From assembly GCA_016647705.1 (NCBI GenBank), contig CM028328.1, positions 1,164,001 to 1,228,000 of the forward strand: a DNA stretch of 64,000 nt, in the 5' to 3' direction. The notes under the pieces are model-generated. The model worked only from the letters and a program-made list of their open reading frames with translations. It was not told the DNA's origin and did no database searches. Of the stretch, positions 4,220 through 62,800 are shown one piece after another. The DNA comes from Eucommia ulmoides. Its lineage: Eukaryota > Streptophyta > Magnoliopsida > Garryales > Eucommiaceae. The position numbers were made by a program, and so were the translations under genes. Every line of letters starts with the position of its first letter. Within the stretch, counting starts at the first letter, position 1.

Positions 4220-5062
4220 TGATTTCAATGTTACAAAATAAAAAACGTTGTTAATAATTTTGAATTTAAAATGGATTGTGTTCAATACTTGACTTTCTAA
4301 TCGAAATATTTCATCATTTTATATTTCGATTGTGTTCAATACTCCACTGAACCTAAGAAGTTTCCCCTGATAACAGTTCAAGTTTCTTTCTTTCGTTATT
4401 CAAAAAAATGTTGTTGAAAAATAATGAAAAACGTGTTAAGTTTAATAGAGTGATAAAATGATAAAAATATCTCATTAGAAATTCATTTGCTAGGTGTCAC
4501 AGTCCAAGCCTTTGTAGGCTAGAAAGCGGACCATGTGGCGCTAACTAAGGGATCGCCTAGTAGCAAGTTTGAAGATCTGAGAATCTTTAATAGCGGAAGC
4601 GGTTTCAATAGCAACAAATTTCTCTATAACAACACATGCCGGCAATATAGGGAAAAATACAATTATAATAACAACAATTGTATTAATATAAAATGTTACA
4701 AGGTGTGAAAGACTTGAATGATTTCAAGAGTATGTCCTTCCATATAATACTTTAAACAAAAAAAATACAAGTGATAACAATAGATATCATTATGCTCGAG
4801 GAGATACAATGAAGTCTTTCTACAAGGAATTAAAGAAATAAACTAAACTAGTTTAGAAAACAAATGAAAAAGGTCACGGATTAACGGTCATGTGCGAGAA
4901 CAAGCACTAGACAAGCTAAGACTGTGACACTAGGCACAACCTATTTTTTGTTCAAATTCGTTAATAACGTTTTCAATTTTGATGGATTGAAATAAATATA
5001 AAATTTAAGAGATCAAATGTACAATTTGATAAACTTTAGGGGCACGAAATGTAATTTTCCCA
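4220..5062. mobile_element. Foldback MITE family A, copy 1 (split by a solo LTR)
   Basis: The two halves (about 4220-4494 and 4936-5062) match the other family A copies. Conserved blocks are AAAACGTTGTTAAT, the GTGCTCARYAYGTGA-type region, CACTAAACCTAAG and the terminal CAATTTGACAAACTT and AATTTTCCC. The family is a long imperfect inverted repeat of about 500 bases ending GGGAAAATTATATTTTTGG. This copy is interrupted at 4495-4930 by an LTR. No coding capacity is seen, so any movement would need a transposase supplied in trans. Confidence 0.75.
4495..4930 (+). mobile_element. Solo LTR (TGTCACAGTC...GACTGTGACA) inside MITE A1
   Basis: The 436-base insert starts TGTCACAGTC and ends GACTGTGACA, a 10-base inverted repeat with TG...CA ends. 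It is flanked by the perfect 5-base direct repeat CTAGG (4490-4494 and 4931-4935). There is no internal retroelement domain, so this is a solo LTR left by LTR-LTR recombination. The orientation is arbitrary. Confidence 0.85.
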
Positions 5063-5117
5063 AAGAAAATCTGTACTACACTTCGCAATGGTCGTCGTCT
5101 TCCGCAATTTGCTGTAC

Positions 5118-5224
5118 TCTCTCTCTCTCTCACTCTCTCTCTCTCTAAGCTGTCTCCGTCCATGGCTGCGTGTGTGTGTGTGTAGTACAATAGCCCCACG
5201 CGACGAACAGTTTACATATAAAAA
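5118..5224 (+). promoter_or_regulatory. Probable core promoter of the ZIP gene
   Basis: A CT microsatellite (about 5118-5147) and a TG run lie upstream of a TATA-like CATATAAAA at 5216-5224, about 64 bases before the ATG at 5288. Pyrimidine-rich tracts next to TATA boxes are common in plant promoters. The transcription start is inferred, not seen. Confidence 0.45.
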
Positions 5225-5287
5225 CCCCCTCAAGAAAATGAGGTCTTCCTTCAACAACTCCCTTCTTTGTCTTCGTCTTCGTCTCAA

Positions 5288-8280
5288 ATGGCGAAATCCC
5301 GATCCAGATACCTTCTCCTCCTCCTTGTTTTCTTCCTCTTCGTAATTATCTCCGTCTCCGCGCACGGCGGCGATCACGACGACGATGCGGATGCTGATGC
5401 AGACACCGATTCGGACGCGGATTCGCCGAAGCCGGATCTCAGATCTAGACCGTTGATTCTGGTGAAGATTTGGTGTTTGATACTCGTTTTCGTCGGGACT
5501 TTCGTCGGAGGGATATCGCCTTGCTTCTTGAAATGGAACGAGGGGTTTCTGGTGATCGGAACACAATTCGCCGGCGGCGTGTTCTTGGGGACTGCGCTGA
5601 TGCATTTTCTGAGCGATTCGAACGAGACGTTCGGGGATTTGACGGACAAAGAGTATCCGTTTGCTTTCATGCTGGCCAGCGCCGGGTATTTGATCACTAT
5701 GCTCGCCGATTGCGTCATCTCTTTTGTCTACGACCGGCAAATCAATGGCTCCGCCGCCGGCGATCCTCGGCGTCAAGGTCTCTGATTATTTTCAATCCTC
5801 TTAAATATATATATAGTTTTGAAATTTGTTGGTTAGGGTTTCGTGTTCTTGGATTTCTGTTTCCATTATCAGAAAACTTGGAACATAAATCGAAATCTTG
5901 GAACATTTTTTGCTGTTTTCATAATGATTTGTTCGTAGAAAACGGAGATCAGAACTGTAAATGATTCAAATTTTGATTTATTTTTGCAATTGCAGGTGTT
6001 GTTCTTCATGATATTAAGGAGGTTGAAGAAAATGGAAGAAATTCACAGCCGCAACTACAGGTGCCTACAAATTATGAGTTTTTTGCACTTTGCACCCTTA
6101 AATTTAAGAGAAATTCTACTTTACCCCTCGTCGTTTTAATTTGAATATATTAACCTTGAAGTATCTAAATCGTCAGTCAGTATGTTCATAATTTTTTATG
6201 ACAGAATTCACCCATGTGTGATTATGTGTGTTGACTAGGTCTAGAGTTCCTAATTTGAAAAATTCACGATTTAATGTATTCAAAGTGAAAAAATCGGAGA
6301 AAAAGTGGAATTTTTCTGAAATTTTAGAGTGCAAAGTGCAAAAATCTCATAAATTATTATTATATTAATAGGAACTAAAAGGAATTATATAATTTTTTAA
6401 AAATTTTAAATATTAAAAAACTAGGAAATGAAAAAAGTAACTCAAAAGTGTTTGTATTATATATATATATACACACAATAACAACAATTAAACTTTTGTC
6501 CTACTTATATAGGATTGGCTACATGAATTCGTTTTATGGCATAATGATCGATCAAGAGTTATCCTCTCAGTCATATTTAATGTCATTAAATCAATTCTAA
6601 TAGTCTCGTCCAATATCTTCTTAGGTCTACTTTTCCTTCTAGTAGTCCCTTGAAATAAATTACATTTTTGCACTAGTGCTTCAACCGGTCTTCTATACAT
6701 ATTCACAAACCATCGTAAACGATTTTCTATAATTTTTTTCTTCGATAGGTGTTATTCTTAAATTCTCTCTAATAATTTAAGAATTTTAATTTAATCCATT
6801 TTTGTCTTCTCATCCATCCAACACAGCATCTTCATTTCTGTCACTCCAATTTTCTAGATATGTGTTGTTTTTATCACTCAACATTTTGAACCATATAGAA
6901 ATGTTGGTTTTATGGCAGTTTTGTAGAACTTTCCTTTAAATTTCAACAGAATCTTACGATCACAAATCACCCTAACTGCATTTCTCCACTTTAACCAATC
7001 TGTCTTGACTCTATGTGTAATATCCTCCTCGATTTGGTCATTATTTTGAATCATTGAACCTATATATCTAAAATAATCAATTTTTGCCACCTTCTCGTCT
7101 CCAATTTTTGACCGCACCAACATTTTTTTGAGTATTACTGAAATTGTAATGCATGTATTCTGTCTTGTTTCGACTAATTTAAAATATAATTAAATTTTAT
7201 TTTTTTTGAAGTGGATTGTGAAATTATTTAGCCACAATTTTATTCGAAAGACTTTCATAATGCACCTATTCCCCTCACATGCATTTTTTTAAAAAAAAAA
7301 TAGGCGTTGTAATTTATTATATAAATATCATTTAAGTATAAAAATTAAAAATAATTAAATTAACTAATTAATCATTTTATTTTGCGTAGATGAAGTAAAT
7401 AGATTAAATTTTTAATTAAATTAAGATAATTTGGATGTTTATTTTTTAAAATAAAATATATATATAAGTTATTAAATCATTTTTTTGAAAAAATGTCCAA
7501 AAGGGAAAATTATATCTTTGGTCCTGGGTGGTTGTTTATTGGATCCTGAAGTTTGTCAAATTGTATATTTGATCCATTGAATTCCACACTGGTTTGAATC
7601 CCACAAAATGAAAACGTTGGTATTGAGTTTAGAAGGAAAATGGGTTGTACTTAGTACGTGACCTTCTATTTAAAATATTATCATTTTGTCACTCCACTGA
7701 ATCTATAACGTTTTTTGTTAATATTTTTCTAACAACAATTCGTCTGAAAATTCAGGATGATGTCACGAACCACCACTTTACCAAAGCCCCTCTAGTCACC
7801 GCCACTTCATTTGGCGATAGCGTCCTCCTGATCGCCGCCCTGTGCTTCCACTCTGTCTTCGAGGGCATAGCAATCGGCGTCGCCGAGACGAAAGCCGACG
7901 CCTGGAGAGCCCTATGGACCGTCTGTCTCCACAAGATCTTTGCCGCCATCGCCATGGGCATCGCCCTCCTCCGGATGATCCCAGATCGTCCGCTCCTCTC
8001 GTGCACCCTCTACGCCTTCTTTTTCGCGGTGTCGACTCCGATCGGAATCGGGATCGGGATTGCCATCGACGCTGTGACGCAGGGCGCCGTTGCCGACTGG
8101 ATCTACGCCATATCGATGGGGATTGCGTGCGGCGTCTTCATATACGTGTCGATCAACCATTTGCTGTCGAAAGGGTATAGGCCGGAGAGATTGGTCGCCA
8201 TTGATAAGCCTCATTTTAGGTTTCTTGCTGTTCTGTTGGGGGTTGGGGTTATTGCAGTTGTCATGATATGGGACACTTGA
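5288..8280 (+). CDS. ZIP11: ZIP family zinc/iron transporter (ZIP2/ZIP11-like)
   Basis: Integral-membrane transporter predicted to import zinc and related divalent metals into the cytosol. Three exons, 5288-5777, 5996-6060 and 7756-8280, all with GT-AG sites, join in frame to 359 aa, the usual family length. An N-terminal signal peptide ends near VSA, followed by an acidic HGGDHDDD stretch that may bind metal. Eight membrane segments follow. The ZIP signature [10 protein letters not shown] lies in segment IV and [14 protein letters not shown] in segment V, with the metal-ligand His and Glu present. The chain ends VVMIWDT, as in the ZIP2/ZIP11 clade. The variable loop before segment IV lacks the usual HxHxH run and has only NHH. 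The ATG at 5288 is chosen because the same frame upstream has no other ATG before the probable TATA box. Intron 2 (1.7 kb) carries a LINE fragment and two MITE pieces. ZIP11 rather than ZIP2 is judged from remembered similarity. Confidence 0.93.
6085..6350. mobile_element. Small foldback MITE in ZIP intron 2
   Basis: The left end TTTTTTGCACTTTGCACCC is mirrored by GTGCAAAGTGCAAAAATC at the right, with partly complementary arms between. It belongs to the 'cannot-code' foldback elements ending in GCACTTTG-type repeats. No clear target duplication was found. Confidence 0.6.
6488..7135 (-). mobile_element. LINE retrotransposon 3' fragment in ZIP intron 2
   Basis: Two reverse-strand ORFs (7123-6878, then 6706-6488 in another frame) match the C-terminal end of plant L1-type LINE reverse transcriptases. 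They show the [17 protein letters not shown] block, [26 protein letters not shown] and the trailing RPKK...TLDR region. The catalytic palm domain is absent and the frame is broken, so this is a dead 5'-truncated piece, antisense to the ZIP gene. Confidence 0.8.
7500..7725. mobile_element. MITE family A, copy 2 (half element) next to the ZIP exon 3 acceptor
   Basis: Starts AGGGAAAATTATATCTTTGG and follows the family A left arm through AAGTTTGTCAAATTGTATAT, AAAATGAAAACGTTGG, TGGGTTGTACTTAGTACGTG and CACTCCACTGAATCTA. The right arm is missing. It stops about 30 bases before the exon 3 splice acceptor at 7755/7756, so it borders the acceptor's pyrimidine tract. Confidence 0.75.
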
Positions 8281-48725: not shown

Positions 48726-50119
48726 GGTTTAAATAAGGGGGGTGTTTGGTTACATATATAGGTTTTAAGGTGAGTGTTTGGTAACATAGATAGGAGTTAA
48801 ATGGGTTTCCGGTTCGATTTTGGTGGTTCGGGTTTGGATAGTCGGACGCCCGTTTATAGGGGTGGGTAGCGGGTGGGTTGGAGCTGTAACGATCCGGTTT
48901 TCCAAGGCAGTCACTAGGTTTCTCCCGAATAGAGCCAAAAGACAACTCACTCCACCACCACGTTTCCGCTGCACCTCTCTAATAGAATAATAATAACATA
49001 TTTTTCCAAATTAAAATTTTAGCTTTTCCACGAAGCCGTCTATTTTGTAACAAAATTACAAAAAAATATTTCAACCATTCACTCTCAATAATTATCCTGA
49101 CAGCCTCCAAAATAAAATTCACTACCTTTTCTAATTATACCTAGCGTAAGTAGTGGATCTGTCTTTAGCTGCGGCACTTGAAACCAAGCCAGAATAAAAT
49201 TTCACTGTCATCATTGCAATAAGATAATGTATTTAAATCAATCAATCCAAACATTTTGACATATAATAAAATATTGCACTCATATTTTTCTTACTAGCCA
49301 TAGGATCGTTTCACATCACGATCGGGAGTTATCATATCCACCCTGCAGGACTTGCCTAATAGGTAACAACATATATAATATATCCACCTTGCAGGACTTG
49401 TCTGACAGATAACAACAAATATCCACCCTGCAGGATTTGTCTGACAAGTAACAACATATCCACCATGCAGGTCTTGTCTGACAAGTAATCCACATCTTGC
49501 AGGACATGCTCTTCTGACAAGAAGACAATTATGGCATAATCGGATAATAAAAACCACCTTCCAACTTTAAAAAACTTACTTGATCTACATAAGTTATAAA
49601 ACCGTCCATTTTAATAAATGTTTTCTTTTTTCACAATTTATACAAAAATATAATTTTTCAATTTACATAGAAGACAATACACTCACCTTGATAGTCACAC
49701 TGTTACTTTGCTACCGCCGAAACACTGACGTTGTCAACTTCGCTTGTGAACCTAACAACGACATGGCCTAAACTAAGAATTTGACTAAATAAATTTACTA
49801 TGCAGTGTGTGCCACCAAAATGCAATTTTTCATATTCTCAAATTTTCTTAATTACATAAAATTTATTTAAATTAAATGTTCTGTTTTCTCAATCCAATAT
49901 TAATTTTACCACTAACTATTATAGTTACTTTTATAAAATTTATCGATCAATAATTTAAGTATATATAAAAATATCAACTATTAGTAATCAATGCAATACT
50001 AAAAATATAATTTTAATCAAATTTATAATTCTTACTTCCAATTAAATTCTTCACAAAATATATATTTCTACATGAATATAACCCGCTATATTTTCCAAAT
50101 GTGTGTGTGTATATATATA
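48726..50119. other. Intergenic with a minisatellite and a possible LTR-like start
   Basis: TGTAACGATCCGGTTTTCC at 48892 looks like the start of a gypsy-type LTR, but I could not find a matching end or duplication. A minisatellite at about 49325-49530 repeats ATATCCACCCTGCAGGACTT plus GTCTGACAAGTAACAAC about five times. The rest is AT-rich to a TG/TA run at 50101-50119. Confidence 0.5.
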
Positions 50120-50255
50120 GAGTTTTTTTATTAAATAGTCCCTTATAGAGAGATCAGTTAGAGTAAAAGCTTTTTTACAAGACCGTTTAGGGCTCATACC
50201 ACCCCGTACAATGGGTTTAGATTTCAGTCCTCCGACGAAGACAAGGCGAACGGCA

Positions 50256-50515
50256 ATGGACGATAATACCCCTATTCACACCGACGGGCCAGATGGACGA
50301 ATCGTTTCGGTTATGGTAAGCGACAAAACAGAGATTTTCATACGCTGATTCAAATACATGTACGACATTCCTTATACAGGCGCGGATTTTCAAAAACATT
50401 CGATTCAAAATTGTAGGCGTTGCAAAACCGGAACGAGGTGAACATTTTGAAACGGCGGCGACGGCGACTATATCACGCGACGGCGATTATATCACTGTGT
50501 CTAAAGGCGAAACAG
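50256..50515 (+). CDS. Short two-exon reading frame at the left end of the MULE (unknown)
   Basis: An ATG at 50256 opens MDDNTPIHTDGPDGRIVSVM (50256-50315, donor GTAAGC). A good acceptor at 50379/50380 continues ARIFKNIRFKIVGVAKPERG through YITVSKGET to a GTCAGT donor at 50515/50516. Codon phase is kept. The next acceptor seen (51707/51708) does not join in frame with the transposase ATG unless the G5 run at 51716-51720 has changed length. It may be a 5' part of the transposase gene or the start of a separate VANB-like gene. I do not recognise the protein. Confidence 0.35.
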
Positions 50516-50556
50516 GTCAGTTATTCGATTGTATTCATTAAAAAGTTATATAGTCG

Positions 50557-50965
50557 CGTTTAATATCGTTTTTGGGTTTTTCGGAGTTGTTACAATGTTT
50601 TCGAAGTTGGATGTTCGAGTTTTGGCGATGAACGAATGCCCATCAGTGAAGGATGTACGCTCCTGAGGAAACGTGAGCAGCACGTTAACGTTAATGCACT
50701 GGGGATTTATTTTGTACATCGCGACGTAATAACAATGTCAATATAAGCAAACACAGTCAGGGTGTTTAATACCCTTTTTCGGGTTTTTCGGCGTTGTTAC
50801 AACGTTTTTGGAAGTTGGATGTTCGATGGGTGGCGAGGAATGAATGCCATTCGTGAGGAATATACGATACGAGATAACGTGAGCAATGCGTTAACGTTAA
50901 CGTACTTCCGGTTTCTGTGTGTACGACGACGTAAGAACAATGTGGATACAATCAAACACAGTTAG
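50557..50965. repeat. Two tandem units of about 205 bp in the left non-coding part of the MULE
   Basis: GGGTTTTTCGGAGTTGTTAC, TTGGATGTTCGA, AACGTGAGCA plus a GTTAACGTTAA motif, and ACGTAATAACAATGT occur in the same order in 50557-50760 and 50762-50965. Each unit carries one palindrome copy, so the motif was amplified with its context. Confidence 0.75.
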
Positions 50966-51300
50966 GAAATGGGTGTACATGGTAAAATTAACTAACTCAC
51001 AGTTTTTTAGCTTTTTTCTGAAAAGTAAGATGCTCCAAGATACAGCGGGTATCAGGGTGTATTCAACGAAACGCTTTCAACGTAAACATGTTTTGACTGT
51101 AACTATTTTTTTGCGTTAACGTTAACGTAATGATTGTACACTGTAAAGTTATTTAACTCACACTTTTTTCAGTTTTTTTTTTCGAAAATTGAGATGCTAC
51201 AAACTACAGACGCACTCGTTTTGTATTCAATAAACAATAAAACGGGGTAACGTTAACGTGTTTTTAACAAGCTGCTATTTTCTCGTTAACGTTAACGTTA

Positions 51301-51465
51301 AATGCATTACCTAAAAATGCATTAACGTTCACGAATCAGTGTAGTGCTGGATTGCGTTAACGTTAACGCATGAAGTAATGCATTAACGTTTACGCAATCA
51401 GTATAGTGCTGGATTGCGTTAACGTTAACGCATTAGGTAATGCATTTAACGGTGACGCATTAAGT
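51301..51465. repeat. Tandem units of about 63 bp with paired palindromes
   Basis: GCATTAACGTTYACG, AATCAGTRTAGTGCTGGATT, GCGTTAACGTTAACGCAT and a GTAATGCAT tail repeat in order at about 51319-51381 and 51382-51444. Located upstream of the transposase ATG. Confidence 0.8.
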
Positions 51466-51723
51466 TATCTAGACTGTTTTTTTTTTTGCACAATTACGCA
51501 TTTTAAGTTTATGTGTTAACGGTTACGCAATTAATCTAACTGCTGGACCAGAGTAACGCAGCGTTAACGTTAATGTAACCCCTGTTTTTACAAGTCAATT
51601 TGATTGCGTTAACGTTTACGCATTTACTAGTAAGCGCGGTTTACAGATTAATGTTCATCTACTGTTTTTTTCTTGCACTTTGGGTTTGCATCCTTCTGAT
51701 CTTGCAGATTTACTAGGGGGTAA

Positions 51724-54145
51724 ATGGCTACGCGCATATTTTTGATGTGCAAGTTTGATGGTTACTCGTTGGGCGTCAAGGTAGATGATGATTTCACGCA
51801 AGCGGTGCTTATTCAAAATGTGTTGTCGCGGTGGGACGTGTTGAGGGATGTTTCGTTCGAGATGTTTTATTCCATACCAGGGCATGACAGGTGCCTAATA
51901 TCGTGTCAGGACGACGTAGAGGTAATGGTTAGCCTTGCACGAGCAATGAAGCTTGAATATGTCGGGGTGGAGATAAAGGTGCGCGGCAGTGGTAGCGGAC
52001 CAAGCGGCAGTCGGGACAGGATGTTATTTGAATATCCAACGGGACAGGGGGGCGGGATGGCATAGACGGGGAGGACGACATGTTGTCCGTTTTCTGCCCA
52101 TTGCCTAAAAAGGCATTATTGTCCGATCATTGGGCTGAAGGTCTTAAAGAAGCCGGGTAGATTTTTAAGGGTGGAATACCGGAATTTAGAGAATCACTGA
52201 GGAAATATGCTGTACAAATGGGTTTCACATTTCAGTACTTAAAGAACGACAAGAAGAGGGTGACAGCTGAATGTTCGCTCAAGGAGGAGAGGGATTGCAA
52301 ATGGAGAGTGCATGGCAGGCTAGACAAAAGGAATGGGTTTTTTTACATTTGGGAGTTCCAGAAAAATCATAGTTGCGGCGCTGCTTATAGGACAGCGAGG
52401 AATGAGAAGATGAACTGTAGCGTTGTGAAGTCATGTCTTTTAGACTTAGTTCGGAATACCCCGTCAACTCACCCAATTGACGTTGTTCACACGTTCAAGA
52501 ACGACTATGGGATTGAGATCCCATATCACATTGCATAGAATGGCGTGGAAAAAGCTCGGGATGATTTGTACGGCGACCACGAATCGTCTTATGATCAATT
52601 GCGATGGTACTTGGATGCATGCAGGCAGACGAATCCAGGCAGCCACCTGGCGTTGGATTATGATAAAGAAACTAGGCATTTCAAGAGACTGTTTGTATCG
52701 TTCTATGCGACTGCGCACGGGTTCAAATACTGCAGGCCGATGCTGTTTCTAGACGGGACATTTCTGGGGGGTAGGTACAAGGGGTGTTTGTTGGCGGCCA
52801 GCGCAAAGGATGGAAACAATGGTAAATTGGTTGATTACTTATTACATAAACGCAATAACACTTATCGTTAACACATTAGATGCAATTAACGCTTTCCTTT
52901 CTTTTTTTTACATTTTTTTAACAGTCTTTGCGAGGGGGTGTGTGGTGTGTGGGGGTGTGTGTGTTTCTGATGAGACAAGTTGATCATGTTTGGGGATGAG
53001 ACATGGAATTTTTTTGCAACGTTAACGTTAACGCATTAAAAACGGCTGTGTATACAATGTTTTTTTTATAGCGTGCTAATCTGTTTTGTGTTTTTCGTAA
53101 ATGGACAGGTCTTTTCCCGGTTGCATTCGCTGTTGTTGATGTGGAGAACGATGACAATTGGTATTGGTTCATGACCAATTTAGATAAAATTGTGGCGAAA
53201 GAACGTGTGCTAACCTTCATTTCTGATCGACATAGTGGCATTCTTGAAGGGGTCCGGAAGATGTTCCCGCATTGTTTTCATTCTTATTGCTTGAACCACC
53301 TGAAGAACAATCTGAGGGACAAATTGGCGGGTTTGAAACAAGCGTGGAATTAGAAGCTCGTGCACAAATATTCGATGATGGCATATGCGACGACGCTTGA
53401 CAAATACTACCAGCTGAGGGAAGAATTAAGAACAGAAGGTATGGGACGAGTAGAGAATTTCCTAGAGGATGTGCCGCCAGACAACTTCTGCAACATGTTT
53501 TTCAAAGGCAAAAGATATGGGGAGATGTCGTCCAACCTAGCGGAGTCATTCAACGCATGGATCCGTGATTACCGGCACCTGCCGATCATATTAATGGTCG
53601 ACAAGATTAGGTGCAAGGTAATGAACCAGTTGTCAGTGAGACGTGCCGAATCACTCCTGATGACGGGTTTCCTATGCCCAGTACGCGACAAAATGCTGTC
53701 GCGGATGATAAGTGACGGGCGGACGTGGAATGTTGTTGAGTGCGGCAACAGCGTATACGAAGTGCACTCGATCCCATCCGTTCTGGTTGATGTGGATAAA
53801 AAAAAGTGCTCCTGCTTCGGTTGGCAGGGAAACGGGTTCCCGTGTGTTCATGCTTGTGCGGCGATACAAAAAAGCGGCCAGAATATACATTCATCCGTTG
53901 AGTCGTTTTTCTTGGTGGAATATTACCGAATGACTTACTCGGAAGATATATATGGTGTACCCACCTTCGAGAAACCGGAATGGAATGCATCGGAAGCTGT
54001 AATTATCTCGCCGATCACAAAAAAACAACCAGGTCGACCGCGGAAGAAACGCATCCCATCTAGGGGTGAGATCCCAGAAATAAGATGTGGTAGATGCAAA
54101 AAGAATGGGCACCACAACAGGAAGACATGCACTGCTTCAATTTAA
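51724..54145 (+). pseudogene. MuDR-type (MULE) transposase, decayed
   Basis: Two exons, 51724-52821 and 53109-54145, joined by a clean GT-AG intron (AKDGNNG/LFPVAFAVVDVEND). In order: a PB1-like N-terminus (MATRIFLMCKFDGYSLGVKV), a MuDR-type zinc DNA-binding region (ECSLKEERDCKWRVHG...NHSCG), and the MULE DDE core with LFLDGTFLGGRYKG (first Asp), FISDRHSGIL (second Asp) and NLAESFNAWI (Glu). A SWIM finger (CSCFGWQGNGFPCVHAC), an AT-hook-like PGRPRKKR and a zinc knuckle (CGRCKKNGHHNRKTC) close it. Damage: a frame change in the G run at about 52040-52050, and TAG codons at 52158-52160, 52536-52538 and 53351-53353. The catalytic residues are still there, so decay looks recent. The family cuts and pastes DNA at terminal repeats. 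Confidence 0.9.
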
Positions 54146-55309
54146 AGCACAGAGTAATCAAATATTTCTTTTTATGTAGTTTTGACACAGCAACACTTTA
54201 TGTGTTTAATGTCAGTGGGGAGTGGAACCTCGTTTTTTTCACATGATGTTTTTGTTTTGCGTAAACATGTAACGAACACACACAAACTTTTAATGTTCAA
54301 CGCTTTCATAATTTTTTTGTATATATTTAATCGCGTTAACGTTAACGCATTTACAAGACCCACCTCAATAACTAATCGCCCGTCGTTAAATCCCTTTTTT
54401 TGGACAACCAACCAGTTAAGAGCAATCACAGTTTGCGTTAACGTTAAGGCGAACGCATTTTACAACCAAAAAACTCAAATAACGAATCGCGTAAACATTA
54501 ACGGTTTTTTATTACAAACCAGCATAAGAGCGATAGAACTACGTTAACGTTAACGTGAACGAATATTACAGCAACTAATTGCGTTAACATTAACGCAGTA
54601 AGGAAACCATCACATGTAACTTATAACGCGTTAACGTCACGACAAATACAACCCAGTAACAAAGTCAAACGTTAACGCAGTTCTTTAAAGTTCAGAAACA
54701 AAACAATTGCATTTTGTTTTTGCATTAACGTTAACGTGAACGAAAGTACAAATTGCATTAAAGTTAACGGATTAACGAACCATCCATTTAACATATTAGC
54801 GTTAACGTTAACGCAATTAAGTGACAACTACGTTAACGTTAACGCAATTTTTTTTAAGCATTTAAGGTACTTTGCGTTAGCGTTAACGTTAACGCAATAT
54901 TTTTACAGACCAGAACAAATCAAAAAAAGAATTTCCGTTAACGTTAACCTGCAACAGTCAAAATTGTTCAACAAGACCAACAAACTAAACCAAATCTAAA
55001 CATTAACTAAGCCCATTAACGTTAACGCGTGGGGTCACAGGCAGCGTATGTAAAATTACAAATTGCGTTAACAATTAACACATTTACAAAAACCACATCA
55101 AATTCAAAAGGCAAAACATTCAACGCAATAAACCAACGGATGAAATAAGAGTTAATTACATTTTTTGTTCGAGTCAACAATAACGCATTTGCACGTTAAA
55201 GCACTGATAAAACACACGCACCCACAATCGCTAAAAATGAATAAATCAGGGGGATATATACATTTTCTCAGATTTTTGTCTCGCATCATCGATAAACTCC
55301 CCCCACAGG

Positions 55310-58300
55310 TCATGGTGTGCCCTGATCTGGTTGGGTTGTTTCAACATCGACGCCCACCACGGGGACCCAACTGTAGTGCGGATGGTTGAGCAGAGCATGT
55401 ATTACGTCTCTCCAGACACCCCGTACATCCGCCACCGACAGTTTTTTCGCGACGGGCATATTTGTAGCATATTGTTTCATAATGTACATAACAAAAATAC
55501 CGCAATCAGTCCTGCAAACCCGGGGGTGGGGGGGGATGGGGGGTAGGGAAGGTAAACAGATGAGAATGATAAATTTGCAAATACATACGATTTTTAGTAC
55601 ACATGCTTCGGACGGGTGAACTTACGCCCCGCGTTGTTGTGGCGAATCGAGACATTGTTCTATACGTGCGTCACCCCAATCTGGACGTATTTTCATGTTG
55701 ATATGTCGTTCCACAAACCTTTTCTGTTCAGAATTTAGGTTAGTCAAACAAAATAGAGTGTAGTTAGAGACAATCAAAGTAGTCACACATTAAATCACAT
55801 ACCATCGTAAGTGCATCATTATAATAATGATCGGTCGTGTTCTTCCTTGGTCGGATGGAATTGTAGAATGTCCATTTTTTATCGGGTATATCCAGCACCA
55901 TCACAGTCCAATGATTGGGTGACGCATGGCGACCGGTAGTGTTCATCGGGAACACCAAATAACGGGTTTCTTTGCTGAACGCGGCGGAGATTGTGTAGTA
56001 CAGTTCCTTCACCAGCACATTGTTGTCCTCCCGTATAAGATCCTATGATTTTTTTTACGTGTTAGCAAGTTTGGATGAAAAAGGAAAAAAAACTAACATG
56101 TGCTAAAGTGTCTTACCCAAATGCATGATATCGCGAACCGCGTTTCGTGCAGCAGCACGATTGGCGTGGTCATCCGCACGCGATTGATTGATCTAACTTC
56201 ATCTTCCAAACACTCTCCATACGAATCAATCACCTGTGAGTAAAGAGGGGGAGAAAGACAAAACAAGTAACGTTAACGTTAACGTTAACGTAACATGAAC
56301 GTTAACGTTACATTACGTAAACATTAACGTAAAAGCAAATTTTGTCAACACAAGCACATTTTTACGAAATAAGTTGATGTAATTAGTTAATCAGGTCAAT
56401 AACAAACACTATGCTGACGATTTCATACGTTATCCGACACACGTCGCTCCATAATCATGCAAATGATGTCGCCACATGAGACCGTGGCCATGGGTTTCCC
56501 ACCTCCAAACACAAATGTACTGGGACATTGTCAAAAACAACATATCACATGATCAGCAAACATTTTTATGGAAAAAGGAATTTCAAAAGTAAACAGGCAC
56601 TTTGAGTAATTTTTTATTTCTTACCCTGGCCCCTCTTTGGAAATCACAGTCAACTTCTCCCAATCGTTGTCATCAAGCATCGCACCAACGGTCGTCGAAT
56701 TACGAGCTGGGAGTACTGCATTGTCTTCATACATCGTTGCCGGGGAGAGCTCATCGACATTAACTATGTCAGATCTCTCTTTCTGCTTCCCTTTCCCTTT
56801 TGCTTTTGGGTAGACAAAATCGCTGCCTTGTTTCTTTGGTTGCCTCTCCTTCTTCTTTACTCGACCAACCATGGAGCTAACCTTTTGCGTTGCCTCCCCA
56901 TGCGACGTAGGCATAGGGACTGGCGACGGCGCATCGGGGGTGTCAGTCGGTATGACCATAGACAGCGGTTGAGGTTCTTGAAGTTCGCGGACTGCGAGAG
57001 TGGTAGGGGTACCCCTACCCCCCATTTGCATGTGGGCGTTCAATTTCGTCTGTAGGTCCTGTATTTGTTTATTGAGCGCCACACGCATTTTAACGTCTGA
57101 TTTTGCTATCTCCTTCTTCTCTTGCCTCAGCAGTTTGTTTATTTCTTGTTCTGTCTTCAAGTCAAGAGCAAGATCATTATATTTCTTCTTCATTTCGCCA
57201 GCAGCATCAGCATGTTGCTGATTCAACGTTTCGATTGTTTTTTTAAGTGTTTCCACCTCCTGGGCGAGTTCGTCACATCTCCGCCTAAGGTCCTCCTGTT
57301 CTGTATCGACGGCGGCCTCTTTATACTTCTGAGTCACGTCATGCACGCTCATTTCCGTTAGGATGTCTCTCTTCTCCCCAATTGATTTCGCTAATCTTAC
57401 AGAGAGATTAGAGACAGAACGCTCATAACTTTCTTTTTCTTGCAAAGACGACGCTTTCAGATTATCAATTTCCTTTTTCTGCTCGACGTTGGCAGCGGTT
57501 ATGATTGCGATCACCCTATGCAGCGCTGCAATGGTCTGATCTTTTTCCATCTTATTCGCAGTGAACTTACCCTGCATTTGGTCGATCTGTCTGCGGATGT
57601 CATCAACTACACCTGCGGAGACAGACGGTGGCCGCAAGTCACCCGCTGAAGGTGTGCAAAATGCACTCTCAGCGGGGGCAGCATCATCACCCAAATCGGT
57701 TGCGGCTTGAGTTGGGACGGGAGAAGGATGATATATGAGGGGTGTGAGATACCGCCCTATGATGTCGTCAACCATTGCATCATAGTCATCAGCAGCAGCA
57801 GCAGCAGCGTCTGGATCTCTGCCCTCATTGCCCGGGCTATCGTTAAATGAATCATTACTATCCTCTTTCAAAGCAATCCCCATTTGAAGCTCTGTCAAAG
57901 TCTCATCAGCGAGCTGATCTTTCACCTGGCAAGCATGTGCAAGCATTAACGTTAACCAGCCACACAACCACACACACACACACCCAAAACAACTAACCGA
58001 TTGCGTTTACATTAAAATTAAATTGCTTGCGTTAACGTTAAACATAAGCACAAAAACCAACAAATAAGTTCGCTAATGCTAACGCAAATAACAATTCCAG
58101 CCACAACATCTACTTTTTTTGCTATTGCGTTAACGTTAACGCACTATTTATTTGTGCATTAACGTTAACGCAAAGATTTATATGCTTAACATTAACACAT
58201 ACATAATTGCGTTAACGTTTACGCAATTATTAAGTGCGTTAACGTTAACGCTAACGCAATAACAATCTAACAATACATAACTTAGTTTGCTTTAACGTTA

Positions 58301-60881
58301 ACGCAACAACTAATTGCGTTAACCATAACGTAAAATACCACTTACCATTTTTCACGTACCTGCATCAACGTTAAAATCACAACATGTTTTTTTTGCTTAT
58401 CTTATCAGCTGGCAGTAGACCGAGGGGAATGCCTTCCAAGTTGGAAGAAAACGTGGTGAGGCACCACCGCTCCAAACGCGGCACACTATGCTGCCTACCC
58501 TCGGTGTGGTCAACCAACGTTGTGTGCTCGCTCAACCAATACTGTAAGTAAAATTTGTAATATGTCAAGCAGGGTCCACAAACAACGCTTATAAATATTT
58601 GAAAAACATTTTCACAATGGGTATGTGTATACCTGGAGAGCAAGCACGCACCCCGTGACCGCCCGGGGTTCCATGTACGATTTCTTGAGGCTGCTTTCGA
58701 GATCTGTGAACATCGCAGCTGTCCAGTTGTAATTTGCCATGTCTTTAATTGTTTCAACATAGCGAACCAACGATTTCTGGACCTGCTGTCCAGTTGTCGC
58801 AAAGAAGCACGTGGTCATTAGGTGTAGAATAACCATGCGGACAACATCCTGCACTGTTTCATTGTCCATGGCGGCGACATTCGCTTGCACTTGTGATCTC
58901 AAATAAGCAACACTAAACCCACGGTCTGCGAATGTTAGTCTGGACATGAATGGGGAGTCGGATTTTGTGTAACGACTCAGAACAATGGGTTCTTCGCCCG
59001 TTGATATCCCGAATATCAGCTGGATGTCAAGCGGGGTTATCCGGATGAGCCTTCCCCCTATCCTAAACCCCCCCCCGTGCAGGGTTGTAGCATCGGATGA
59101 TCATTTCAATGAGATCATCATTTTTGTGGATGTTTTCGAGCGTCACCCGCTGCTCATATAATGTCTCGAATATTTTTGCAAATGGGGTCCGGGCCAGCAG
59201 TGCCTTATGCTGATCGTTGAGTTTGCAGTCTCTCAGCAATTCATAGGTCTGCTTAAGGTTGGAGCGATAAAGGAATGTCCGCTGGCTCGAACTTTCCTTT
59301 TTCGGCTTCTTTAGGAGTTTTACTGCAAGAACGACGGGGGGAAACACAATTAATGCACATTACAAGCCACACGTTAACGTTAAAGCAGTTATCCATATCC
59401 CCTCATTACGTAACATAAAACTGGGTACTATTTTGCGTTAACGTTAACGCACAACAAGAAATGCGTTAACGTTAACGCATTTCTTTCAAAAAAACAAAAT
59501 ATCGCACCAAAACGGCCCCCACCCTTTTCCCAGGCAAAACATCTATGTGCGTTAACATTAATGCAATTACATCCACGCGTTCACGTTAACGCAAGACGCA
59601 ACAAATAGTGCTGCACCAGTCAGACAAACAAACAAACCTAAATCTAAACACACAGGCTAAAATTAATGTTAACCTTAAAGCAGTCATCCATATCACTCGG
59701 TACGTAACAAAAACATGCTACTACTCTGCGTTAACGTTAACGCACAACAAGAAATGCGTTAATGTTAATGTATTTCTTTCAAAAAAACAAAATTTCGCAC
59801 CAAAACGGTCCCCACACTTTTCCCAGGCAAAACGTCTATGTGCGTTAACATTAATGCAATTACATCAACGCATTAACGTTAACACAAGACGCAGCAAATA
59901 GTGCTGCACCAGTCAGACAAACAAACAAACCTAAATCTACATACACAGGCTCAAATTAATGTTAACCTTAAAGCAGTCATCCATATCACTCGGTACGTAA
60001 TAAAAACAGGCAACTACTCTGCGTTAACGTTAACGCACAACAAGAAATGCGTTAACGTTAATGCGTTTTTTTCAAAAACACAAAATATCGCACCAAAACG
60101 GTCCCCACCCTTTTCCCAGGCAAAACGTCTATGTGCGTTAACATTAATGCAATTACATCCACGCGTTAACATTAACGCAAGACGCAGCAAATAGTGCTGC
60201 ACCAGTCAGACAAAAAACAAACAAACCTAAATCTAAACACACAGCCTCAAATTAATGTTAACGTTAAAGCAGTCATCCATATCACTCGTTACGTAACAAA
60301 AACAGGCAACTACTCTGATTCAGCGTTAACGCACCACAATAAATGCGTTAACGTTAACGCATTTTCCTCAACAAACCAGAACGTCGTCCCAGATTTGAGA
60401 AAAAAACCGACGAGTAACGCAAAAGGGCCCTCCCCCCTTTTTACAGGCAAATGTCTGTTTGCGTTAACATTAACGCAATCACATCAACGCGTTAACGGTA
60501 ACGCAATCGAAGTACATAGTGGTGTACCAGACAAACAAACAAACCTAAATCTAAACATACGACTCACATTTATGTTAACGTTAACGCAAGCATTTTTTTT
60601 ATAAATTCCTTCTTTTCGGAGGCAAAACAACATGTGGGTTAACATCGCAAAACAACGAAACAAAACACGACGTACGATTTCAAAAAAAACGTAAACAGGG
60701 GAACAGAGCATGTCGGAGTCGGGTAAAATAGACGAACATCATCGTCTCGCTTCGTGATTTTCATTTCTAAAACACCGTCCCCTAACAACATTGTATCGAT
60801 TTTAGGGTTTCACATACCGTCGGGACTGAGGGTTGCTCGTTTTTGTGTGGAAGACGAGGGGGCGCGTTCAAAATTCTCCAT
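55310..60881 (-). pseudogene. DUF1985-like/coiled-coil/ULP1-type protease gene of the MULE
   Basis: Nine exons: 60881-60818, 59322-58633, 58541-58360, 57925-56625, 56519-56429, 56233-56117, 56042-55803, 55723-55626 and 55511-55310, about 990 codons. It begins MENFERAPSSSTQKRATLSPD. Exons 2-3 hold a DUF1985-like block (KIFETLYEQRVTLENIHKN, GGRLIRITPLDIQLIFGIS, YWLSEHTTLV). Exon 4 is a long coiled coil rich in Lys/Glu heptads with a basic KKKERQPKKQG. Exons 5-9 form a C48 cysteine-protease fold with the catalytic His in SPNHWTVMVLDIP, a Gln in DSPQQRG and the Cys in TDCGIFVMYIM. The usual Asp after the His strand is Asn (FYNSIRPR). Two frame breaks, at the C9 run 59075-59083 and an A8 run (T8 at about 58387-58394), disrupt it. 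In VANDALs, VANC-type proteins with related regions act as anti-silencing factors; the role here is inferred. Confidence 0.85.
59385..60575. repeat. Four tandem units of about 294 bp in intron 1 of the ULP1 gene
   Basis: Units start at about 59385, 59680, 59973 and 60269 with GCAGTYATCCATATC. Each carries a GCGTTAACGTTAACGCACMAC motif, AARAAATGCGTTAACG, a CCAGGCAAAACGTCTATGTG-type stretch, GCGTTAACATTAAYGC, an ACGCGTTAACGTTAACGC-type copy and GACAAACAAACAAACC. Units 2 and 3 are the most alike, unit 4 the most diverged. Each unit supplies four to five palindrome-type sites. Confidence 0.92.
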
Positions 60882-61449
60882 TATCTGAAGACGATGGGGC
60901 GATTTTGGATTATTAGTTTTAGGGTTTTGGGGTTTCAGAGTTTTTAAGCGAGGAGAGGATAGATAGCGTGGGAGAGAATAGAGAGCGTTTTGGCAGTTTT
61001 TTTGTATGCGATCGTGCAGCTAGTGGAACTTGTAACAGGACATATCGGAATCAGAACGGACGCAGTAACACGCCGACAGCTAACCGTGCGTTAACGTTAA
61101 CGCAATCCGCTACTGTTAACAGAAAAAAAAAAATAAAAAAAAATACCGTTGCAAAGCTATCGTCGAGCTCTTTAATTTGATCACATTTTTATATGATTTG
61201 ATTCAGAAATCAGATTTATAGAAGCGGATTACGTATTGGGTGGTTTTTTTTTAGTGCCCTGTTCGGCTGTTCATGTTGTAGTGTTTGTATCCTCAGAATG
61301 GCATGTTGCGTAAATAAACTGTAAAAGGAAGGGCAAAATGGAAGGACTTTTTCCTAAAGAATTGAGGTGGTCTGAAAACTTAATTCTAATTGTATTAGGG
61401 TCTAAATTGTGAAATGTGCTCTAACAGAGGACTAAAAAATAAAATTCCC

Positions 61450-62800
61450 ATATATATATATATATAAACACCACACCTACTTATACAGGCATAAAATAGA
61501 AGTGAGAGAAATATAGAAAAAATTTACCTTAGAGAATATAATGGAAAGAATGGTGGACGAGGATTAAGGTGCGCAAAAGAGAGTATAAATATATCTAGAG
61601 AGAGGAAGACTATGCACATTTATATCTATATCTATATATTATATATAAAAGCGGAAGACATGCTCTCATATTCAAATATTGTTCATCTATCAATTTTTAT
61701 TCATTTGGATGAATAAATGGTCAAAATTTGTTTAACACTCGTGATATTAACTCCCCACAATAATATTATGATTTTTCATATTTTTTGTTTTTAAAAATAG
61801 TGTAATTTGAATAACATTTTAATGTAAATTAATTGAATCATTCATACTTATATTAATTCTTTTCATTCTAATTAATTATCCAAATAGTTCAATGATTTTC
61901 TTCTAATTTAAAATAAATGTCTCCTTTTTTTTTTTCTTTTTTTTTCTTTTTTTTTTTTTATAAATATGACATATTAAATTGGCAAAAATAATTATATTTT
62001 TTTTTTCTCTTTTGTTGTGATTTTTTATTGATAATCACTATTAAAATTTATAATAATAATAACTACTAAACAACACAAAGTGAGAACTATTATTTTGTTT
62101 AAAAGTTAGCCTAAAAAATAAAATTAAAAGAACTATAAATAAATAAATAAAATTTTTATTCAAACACACATTAACAATTTTTAAAATTATATATCTCCTC
62201 TTAGAATTTAATATTTAAATTTATTTTGCTCTTTTGCTTATTATTTTGAAGTATAAAAATAAATTAGAGTGATCGAAAACGATATTTTTTTAAATGTATT
62301 AAATTTTTATTTAAAAAAAAATATTATTCAACATTAAATTAAAAGAAACATCACTAAACATTTCATATATAATATTCAAATGTTAAATATTTATTAATAT
62401 AAATTTAATTTATTTTTTAAAACCCGCATGTTGTTCGGATCTAAAACTAGTATTAATTCCACCGTTTCTTGGTAAGGTAAAATTGATATTTTGCATTAAT
62501 TACACAATTAGCCCTCCCTCAAGAGAATTAATTACACATATAACCGAAACAAATTTGTAATATTACTCAAAGTCTAAAGCTTTTAAGAATAAATTTTAAA
62601 TTGCATATTAACCCCAAATAATATATTTTTTTTTATTATTACTTTTTTTTTTTCTTTTATCAAGTCAAAACTGATATATTAATTCCCAATTTTTTTATTT
62701 TTTTGTTTTTTTTCATTTTTAAAATAACGCACTACGCCCAAATATTTTTTTTAAGTGTTATGAAATGCATTTAAAGATATGTATATGCATAATTGGGGCT
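61450..62800. other. AT-rich intergenic DNA with homopolymer and TA runs
   Basis: Dominated by T runs, TA microsatellite pieces (61450-61466, 61620-61650) and TTTAATTTATTT-type sequence. No gene, RNA or element end is recognised. Confidence 0.5.

Follow-up and report, generated by a model that had tools for sequence, protein, structure and literature searches.

The 64-kb window (the whole stretch of Eucommia ulmoides DNA analysed here) contains a Mutator-like element (MULE) of 11,330 bp at 50120-61449, flanked by a 9-bp target-site duplication. The element carries a plus-strand transposase gene, a minus-strand accessory gene and, throughout its non-coding DNA, many copies of a palindromic motif. 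Its features are as follows.

50111-50119, no strand: left target-site duplication ATATATATA, 9 bp, matching 61450-61458 exactly
50120-61449, no strand: whole MULE, with termini GAGTTTTTTTATTAAATAGTCC / GGGAATTTTATTTTTTAGTCC common to the full paralog C1:11232342-11243509
50561-50965, no strand: diverged tandem pair of ~205-bp units with 77% identity, each unit holding one motif site
50682-51621, no strand: 5' leader cluster, 12 sites (up to 3 mismatches), containing a 62-bp array at 51316-51459
51724-52820, plus strand: transposase exon 1, PB1-like start and DBD_Tnp_Mut, with one frameshift and two in-frame TAG
52821-53110, plus strand: transposase intron with one site at 53019-53034, GT..AG boundaries read by eye
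53111-54145, plus strand: transposase exon 2, MULE domain and SWIM finger, with one in-frame TAG
54333-55028, no strand: cluster of 15 sites between the 3' ends of both genes
55310-56540, minus strand: Ulp1-type Peptidase_C48 exons, PF02902 with E 1.8e-11 for hand-joined exons and 3e-5 for one exon alone
56270-56291, no strand: accessory-gene intron, two overlapping sites (GTTAAC tandem)
56624-57934, minus strand: coiled-coil exon within the open frame 56621-58006, with a weak bZIP_1 match (E 0.034)
57943-58331, no strand: accessory-gene intron cluster, 9 sites
58400-59330, minus strand: PMD/DUF1985-like domain exons, with a frameshift at a C/G run near 59070
59371-61103, no strand: cluster of 19 sites upstream of the accessory gene, including a 293-bp array at 59373-60364
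61450-61458, no strand: right target-site duplication ATATATATA, 9 bp, matching 50111-50119 exactly

The ends of the element were set by comparison of the window with the paralog C1:11232342-11243509, whose main blocks are 85-96% identical to the window element and which lies between perfect 9-bp duplications of TATATTATA. An earlier reading of this DNA from the letters alone (hereafter the sequence-only reading) had placed the limits at 50680-61105, and these are corrected by the paralog comparison and the duplications. Target-site duplications of MULEs usually measure 8-11 bp, and a 9-bp duplication was found in the window copy, in the paralog and in a short copy; the window duplication is of low complexity, and the same junctions carry TATATTATA in the paralog and AAAAAAATA in the short copy. 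Because the inverted repeats at the termini are only short and imperfect, the ends are considered to lack true terminal inverted repeats (non-TIR-like), as in VANDAL elements and Kaonashi MULEs (KI-MULEs). The short copy is a non-autonomous element of 951 bp (positions 4546-5496 of sampled stretch L029) with both family ends, AAAAAAATA flanking each side, seven motif sites and no open frame above 70 aa; the termini and the sites are what this copy keeps.

The exact core GTTAACGTTAAC occurs 23 times in the window, always within 50890-61101, and shuffled sequences predict 0; 45 sites lie within two mismatches of the 16-mer GCGTTAACGTTAACGC and 58 within three. All 58 are located in non-coding DNA of the element, including introns of both genes, with none in 5,149 bp of hand-modelled exons or in the 52.7 kb of the window outside the element. 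The sequence-only reading had claimed 23 cores against a chance expectation far below one, many near variants, and confinement to the non-coding parts of the element, and each of these claims was borne out. If sites were spread evenly, the probability of such exon avoidance would be ~5e-16, although overlapping and duplicated sites are not independent. GTTAACG is found 66 times in non-coding DNA of the element and not once in its exons or outside it, and the seven commonest 8-mers of the non-coding part are fragments of the motif site. De novo expectation-maximisation on the non-coding part recovered the site and extended it to 18 bp, TGCGTTAACGTTAACGCA, and the information in the flanks likewise extends the motif to 18 bp. 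Since 17 of 32 convergent GCGTTA/TAACGC pairs within 60 bp share one offset (10 bp) and only 3 of 44 nine-base half-sites stand alone, the unit is taken to be the whole palindrome. The 58 sites fall into 41 flank clusters, and thus do not form one array. Two details of the sequence-only reading required revision: the 12-mer contains one CpG and the 16-mer three, not two per site, and its three tandem arrays are too few, because periods of 62, 6-23, 27 and 293 bp are present together with the diverged ~205-bp pair. A paired-site spacing of 24-32 bp (p = 0.043 after removal of array copies) and a weak period of 27-28 bp (p 0.02 and 0.04 among eleven periods tried) are not claimed.

By its predicted domains, the plus-strand gene is a MULE transposase with a MuDR DNA-binding domain and a SWIM finger. 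The hand-joined protein matched PF10551 (7.5e-17), PF03108 (1.3e-13) and PF04434 (2.2e-9) above the Pfam cut-offs, which single pieces also pass; the PB1-like start of exon 1 (E 0.018) is under the cut-off, and the best-scoring database match was a Camellia protein at 46% identity. A search of the genome (946.7 Mb, 391 contigs) with the last 263 transposase residues, in which 145 of 3,742 first-look candidates were scored, returned at least 146 matches. Among these, 44 besides the window are full-length or near full-length at 94-98% identity, and 26 of the 44 have no stop within the 263-residue stretch, indicating that copies with this part of the transposase open exist; these near-identical and largely stop-free matches point to recent activity of the MULE family in the host. 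The two frameshifts of the window copy, at 52040-52060 and 59050-59085, both lie at or beside G/C runs, so homopolymer assembly errors are possible.

The minus-strand accessory gene combines a PMD/DUF1985-like domain, a long coiled-coil exon and a Ulp1-type C48 protease, and apart from the weak bZIP_1 match the coiled coil was judged by eye. Its Ulp1/C48 gene lies opposite the plus-strand transposase (mudrA), the arrangement of Kaonashi (KIU) elements. Within 55764-56042 on the minus strand the C48 cysteine motif DCGIF is kept, and the histidine is followed by an asparagine (NHW...FYNS) at the usual aspartate distance. PMD fits the N-terminal domain as well as or better than DUF1985 wherever either profile matches; the DUF1985 label of the sequence-only reading is a sub-threshold match, with PMD at least as apt a name. 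As both profiles score over overlapping residues and below the cut-offs, the domain is placed between the two families, and we infer that PMD and DUF1985 are homologous. The predicted structure of the PMD-like exon was unusable (mean predicted local distance difference test score 44), and a PDB sequence search with the C48 part gave no match.

To compare the motif with transposase relatedness, 20 relatives were hand-picked over the identity range from the at least 146 matches, and ~1.25 kb downstream of the transposase was compared. Motif A, the window spelling counted at three mismatches, is present in all 11 relatives with 73-98% transposase identity (1-17 sites each, and 10-17 in all 8 at 83% or more), but in 0 of 9 at 61-67% (Fisher p 6e-6, with related copies not independent). 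The sequence-only reading had named related MULEs lacking the motif as a result that would count against it: the closer relatives all have motif A, whereas the distant ones lack it at this threshold and mostly carry re-spelled motifs, which is what co-evolution predicts. At four mismatches, five of the nine distant relatives (clade B) carry 3-5 TGAGTGAATATTCACTCA- or TACGTGAATATTCACGTA-like sites, and three (clade C) carry 3-4 TGATTGAATGTTAACG-like sites. The ninth, L055 (transposase L079), is a long-branch sequence whose downstream part has one B-like site and thus shows neither spelling clearly; it may hold a further motif. When motif labels were placed on the transposase tree, 3 changes were needed, against a minimum of 2 and a mean of 9.1 for shuffled labels, with 0 of 200 shuffles going so low. 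Near-copies in the tree favour such a count, and it includes two weak labels, L048, a 1:1 A/C tie scored C, and L055, scored B on its single site.

The two-gene arrangement of the window element (element A) recurs in elements B, C and D. Exon masks for these three were based on tblastn hits, and because the ends of B and C were not located, the stretches used for them contain some flanking DNA as well. A de novo search in each element gave the following likelihood gains, with two shuffles each in brackets: A, TGCGTTAACGTTAACGCA, 720 (76, 78); D, tacGTTAACGTTAACGta, 405 (83, 63); B, TacGTgaATATtcACgtA, 322 (85, 100); and C, tanGTtAAcgTTaACnta, 259 (59, 145), the last less clear of its shuffles than A, B and D. 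The four motifs are palindromes of similar shape, and the motif differs between related element families, as it does among VANC systems. The strict scaffold GTNAAYRTTNAC occurs 30 times in A, 13 times in D and 3 times each in the B and C stretches, so the B and C motifs, as judged by position weight matrix and mismatch counts, are degenerate versions of it; reversed controls for the mismatch counts gave 0-3. With 5 of 18 mismatches allowed, each of the three clade C stretches has A-like sites (4, 1 and 2) and two of them also have B-like sites (3 and 4), so that the B, C and A motifs overlap. Hybrid-like sites of element C, with one B-like and one A-like half, are in one orientation in 8 of 8 cases; because the de novo consensus there is a degenerate palindrome, the hybrid is put forward as a possibility and not as a finding.

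Genome-wide, the 12-base core occurs 7,712 times compared to 183 for its reversed control, a count that the sequence-only reading had proposed as a check. The sample examined consisted of 15 10-kb stretches from contig C1, which hold the first 50 of the listed places, and 5 control stretches, none of which contained motif sites. Coding or terminal sequence of the window MULE family is present in 7 of the 15 stretches, accounting for 34 of the 50 places. An IMG/VR scan for the 16-mer gave 15 stretches, 0 with a second exact site.

Sites turn over quickly, as 39 start in the same column in the window (58 sites) and the paralog (53 sites, 0 starting in exon columns). Divergence between the two copies is 5.9% in exons, 10.6% in non-coding spacer and 13.2% in motif columns. 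In the 293-bp array, 62 of 207 spacer columns vary compared to 14 of 79 motif columns when the oldest copy is included (p 0.037), but among three recent copies there is no excess (24 of 212 and 8 of 79); site-level conservation is not claimed, since this signal is gone in the recent copies and the paralog comparison runs the opposite way. For the two largest transposase segments the ratio of nonsynonymous to synonymous divergence (dN/dS) ranges over 0.26-0.32, for five segments of the accessory gene over 0.18-0.76, and for the PB1-like part it is 0.65. Variant sites show 53 substitutions in the core, made up of 27 CpG transitions, 2 other transitions and 24 transversions, which is consistent with past methylation of the sites. 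Observed/expected CpG is 1.13 in motif-free non-coding DNA, 0.96 in exons and 0.81 outside the element, and the element is therefore not strongly CpG-depleted.

The sites and their distribution, the genes, the termini and the lineage-specific motifs of relatives are direct observations, and they probably belong to a MULE of the Kaonashi type that has an anti-silencing address system of its own, in which an accessory protein binds the 18-bp palindrome and relieves silencing. The accessory gene would most likely encode a dimeric DNA-binding protein, a dimer being suggested by the palindromic site and the long coiled coil, and this protein would recognise TGCGTTAACGTTAACGCA, dense in every larger non-coding part of the element. 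Recognition would relieve host silencing of site-bearing copies, non-autonomous ones included, while local tandem duplication would multiply the sites and sites would turn over quickly; sister lineages would have changed the spelling of the site while keeping a similar scaffold (~GTNAAYRTTNAC), and their proteins would presumably have changed with it. Sites restricted to non-coding DNA, tandem renewal, the reverse Ulp1 gene, the site-keeping short copy and the differing sister motifs all fit such a system. The sequence-only reading had proposed a cis/trans pair analogous to, but distinct from, that of VANDAL elements, with a dimeric and possibly methylation-sensitive binding protein. This proposal is supported in part: the anatomy of the element and the sister-lineage motifs agree with it, and on the protein side we infer the identity of the binder, its dimerisation and the loss of methylation.

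Several observations weigh against this interpretation. The window copy is defective, with two frameshifts and three in-frame TAG stops across both genes, several relatives are defective too, and a 79-codon middle piece of the transposase has a dN/dS of 1.04. The accessory domain of the window scored E 1.4e-6 for PMD (28.2 bits against a Pfam cut-off of 34.9) and E 0.004-0.011 for DUF1985, also below its cut-off; over overlapping residues, a clade B relative reached 2.4e-7 for PMD and 5e-6 for DUF1985 (profile positions 15-131 of 141), both sub-cut-off, and a clade C piece had no match to the DUF1985 profile. The C48 aspartate position, which we assign by the spacing assumed for Ulp1, reads as asparagine. 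No homologue of the accessory protein came up, either among ~8,000 scored candidates (E up to 0.001) or among 2,026 candidates (E up to 10), so its family is assigned from Pfam and from relatives within this genome. Motif columns differ between window and paralog slightly more than spacer does (114 of 865 compared to 491 of 4,615, p 0.033), so that no site-level constraint is seen, and no 10.5-bp helical periodicity was found among the sites. When five mismatches are allowed, exons do contain a few sites: 2 of the 36 A-type sites in element D and 1 of the 10 B1-type sites in element B. Finally, 8 of the 15 sampled stretches, with 16 of the 50 exact places, lack a recognised part of the window MULE family (one of the eight, L030, has a borderline end match of 39 compared to 35 for the best of 5 controls), and in L022, L023 and L027 the core is borne by copies of another repeat without recognised MULE ends.

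Other explanations account for parts of these data. The palindrome could be the binding site of the transposase itself, repeated internally to aid synapsis or excision, a role that subterminal repeats have in some other transposons. Sites that are dense in the element family and track the transposase tree, and a transposase with a DNA-binding domain, agree with this; however, sites are also dense mid-element (15 between the genes) and in introns, the outermost ones lie ~560 bp inside the left end and ~350 bp inside the right end, and elements with different motifs retain ~60-70% transposase identity to the window, and we judge this explanation unlikely. It is somewhat less likely that the element uses host transcription factor sites as enhancers. 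The palindrome centre AACGTT contains an ACGT core, and both the tandem amplification of the core in an apparently unrelated repeat and its occurrence away from recognised parts of the MULE family favour a host factor, which nevertheless leaves unexplained why sister lineages of the same genome spell the motif differently and why sites lie between the 3' ends of both genes.

Passive expansion of tandem repeats through slippage of the hexamer GTTAAC, without involvement of a binding protein, would account for arrays of several periods and for motif columns without extra conservation relative to the paralog, and GTTAAC is itself palindromic, GTTAACGTTAAC being a tandem of it. It is hard to reconcile with 41 flank clusters for 58 sites, palindromic information spanning 18 bp and so reaching beyond the hexamer, comparable site density in all 8 sampled relatives with at least 83% identity, and clade B sites on a related scaffold that are spread over several separate regions of the element; we regard it as very improbable.

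The short motifs bound by VANC21 (YAGTATTAY) and by VANC6 (whose regions carry AGTTGT[CA]C) lie in non-coding tandem repeats, and both proteins cause demethylation; when expressed, each VANC removes methylation from its own family and from close relatives, and the effect extends to a non-VANDAL element with the VANC6 motif (PMC5735166). RNA-directed DNA methylation targets the same non-coding regions (PMC10398659). A review describes Ulp1-bearing VANC genes that act likewise, recognising motifs of other KIU elements and lowering their methylation (PMC13317346), and KI-MULEs carry Ulp in reverse orientation to mudrA (PMC2528002). For PMD, capture by MULEs has been speculated to serve anti-silencing, and the MULE PMDs reported in grasses and Amborella are fused to the transposase (PMC5418596).

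The window element resembles VANDAL21/VANC21 and VANDAL6/VANC6 of Arabidopsis in being a MULE with a dense, short, family-specific motif in introns, intergenic and terminal non-coding regions that is renewed in tandem repeats; the DUF1985 domain of the VANC proteins has a possible, sub-cut-off counterpart here. It differs in that YAGTATTAY is arrayed in one orientation whereas its own site is an 18-bp palindrome, and binding is proven for VANDAL but predicted for the present system. Neither the VANC21 nor the VANC6 motif occurs in the element, in agreement with the earlier claim that its motif is distinct from that of VANDAL21. With Kaonashi elements it shares the Ulp1 domain in a gene reverse to mudrA (PMC2528002, PMC13317346). 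With MAIN/MAIL and MULE-encoded PMD proteins it shares PMD as the best, though sub-cut-off, Pfam match of its accessory N-terminal domain; in the window element, however, a separate gene combines this PMD-like domain with a coiled coil and Ulp1, in place of a fusion to the transposase. Work of Sasaki in 2022 (EMBO J) reportedly describes at least ten VANC systems in Arabidopsis, with DUF1985, DUF287 and Ulp1 gained and lost, and is said to tie VANC specificity to motif sequence, density and helical periodicity, the last of which was not found in the window element. The palindrome did not appear in titles or abstract openings of the VANC, Kaonashi and PMD literature, from which absence from print is not claimed, and a literature search for the 12-mer gave no plant-transposon paper by title.

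Several lineages with one layout and differing spellings on one scaffold make it possible to test, by protein and site swaps, how VANC-type proteins select their targets and how the two evolve together. We tentatively suggest, as a possibility short of even, that a recognition code is readable within this one genome: a scaffold ~TnnGTnAAy-rTTnACnnA re-spelled by lineage, with GTTAAC halves in A, GTGAAT halves in B, and maybe a hybrid in clade C, whose sites may look as if read by a heterodimer or caught mid-switch. Should such a code exist, a comparison of paired proteins and sites could reveal the residue-to-base rules of VANC-like specificity. Protein and site swaps could also yield sequence-specific epigenome editors, and the proposed anti-silencing system would extend VANC-type recognition to palindromic, probably dimeric sites and would connect the PMD and DUF1985 domains.

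The second motif-bearing repeat was located at the following positions.

L022 3584-5081: second motif-bearing repeat
L022 9812 to L023 1134: second motif-bearing repeat
L027 4197-5298: second motif-bearing repeat

Its GTTAACGTTAAC copies lie in ~46-bp tandem units, of which one copy of the repeat has gained extra. This repeat possibly shares an address tag with the MULE family, and it resembles the VANC6 case, in which a non-VANDAL element carries the motif.

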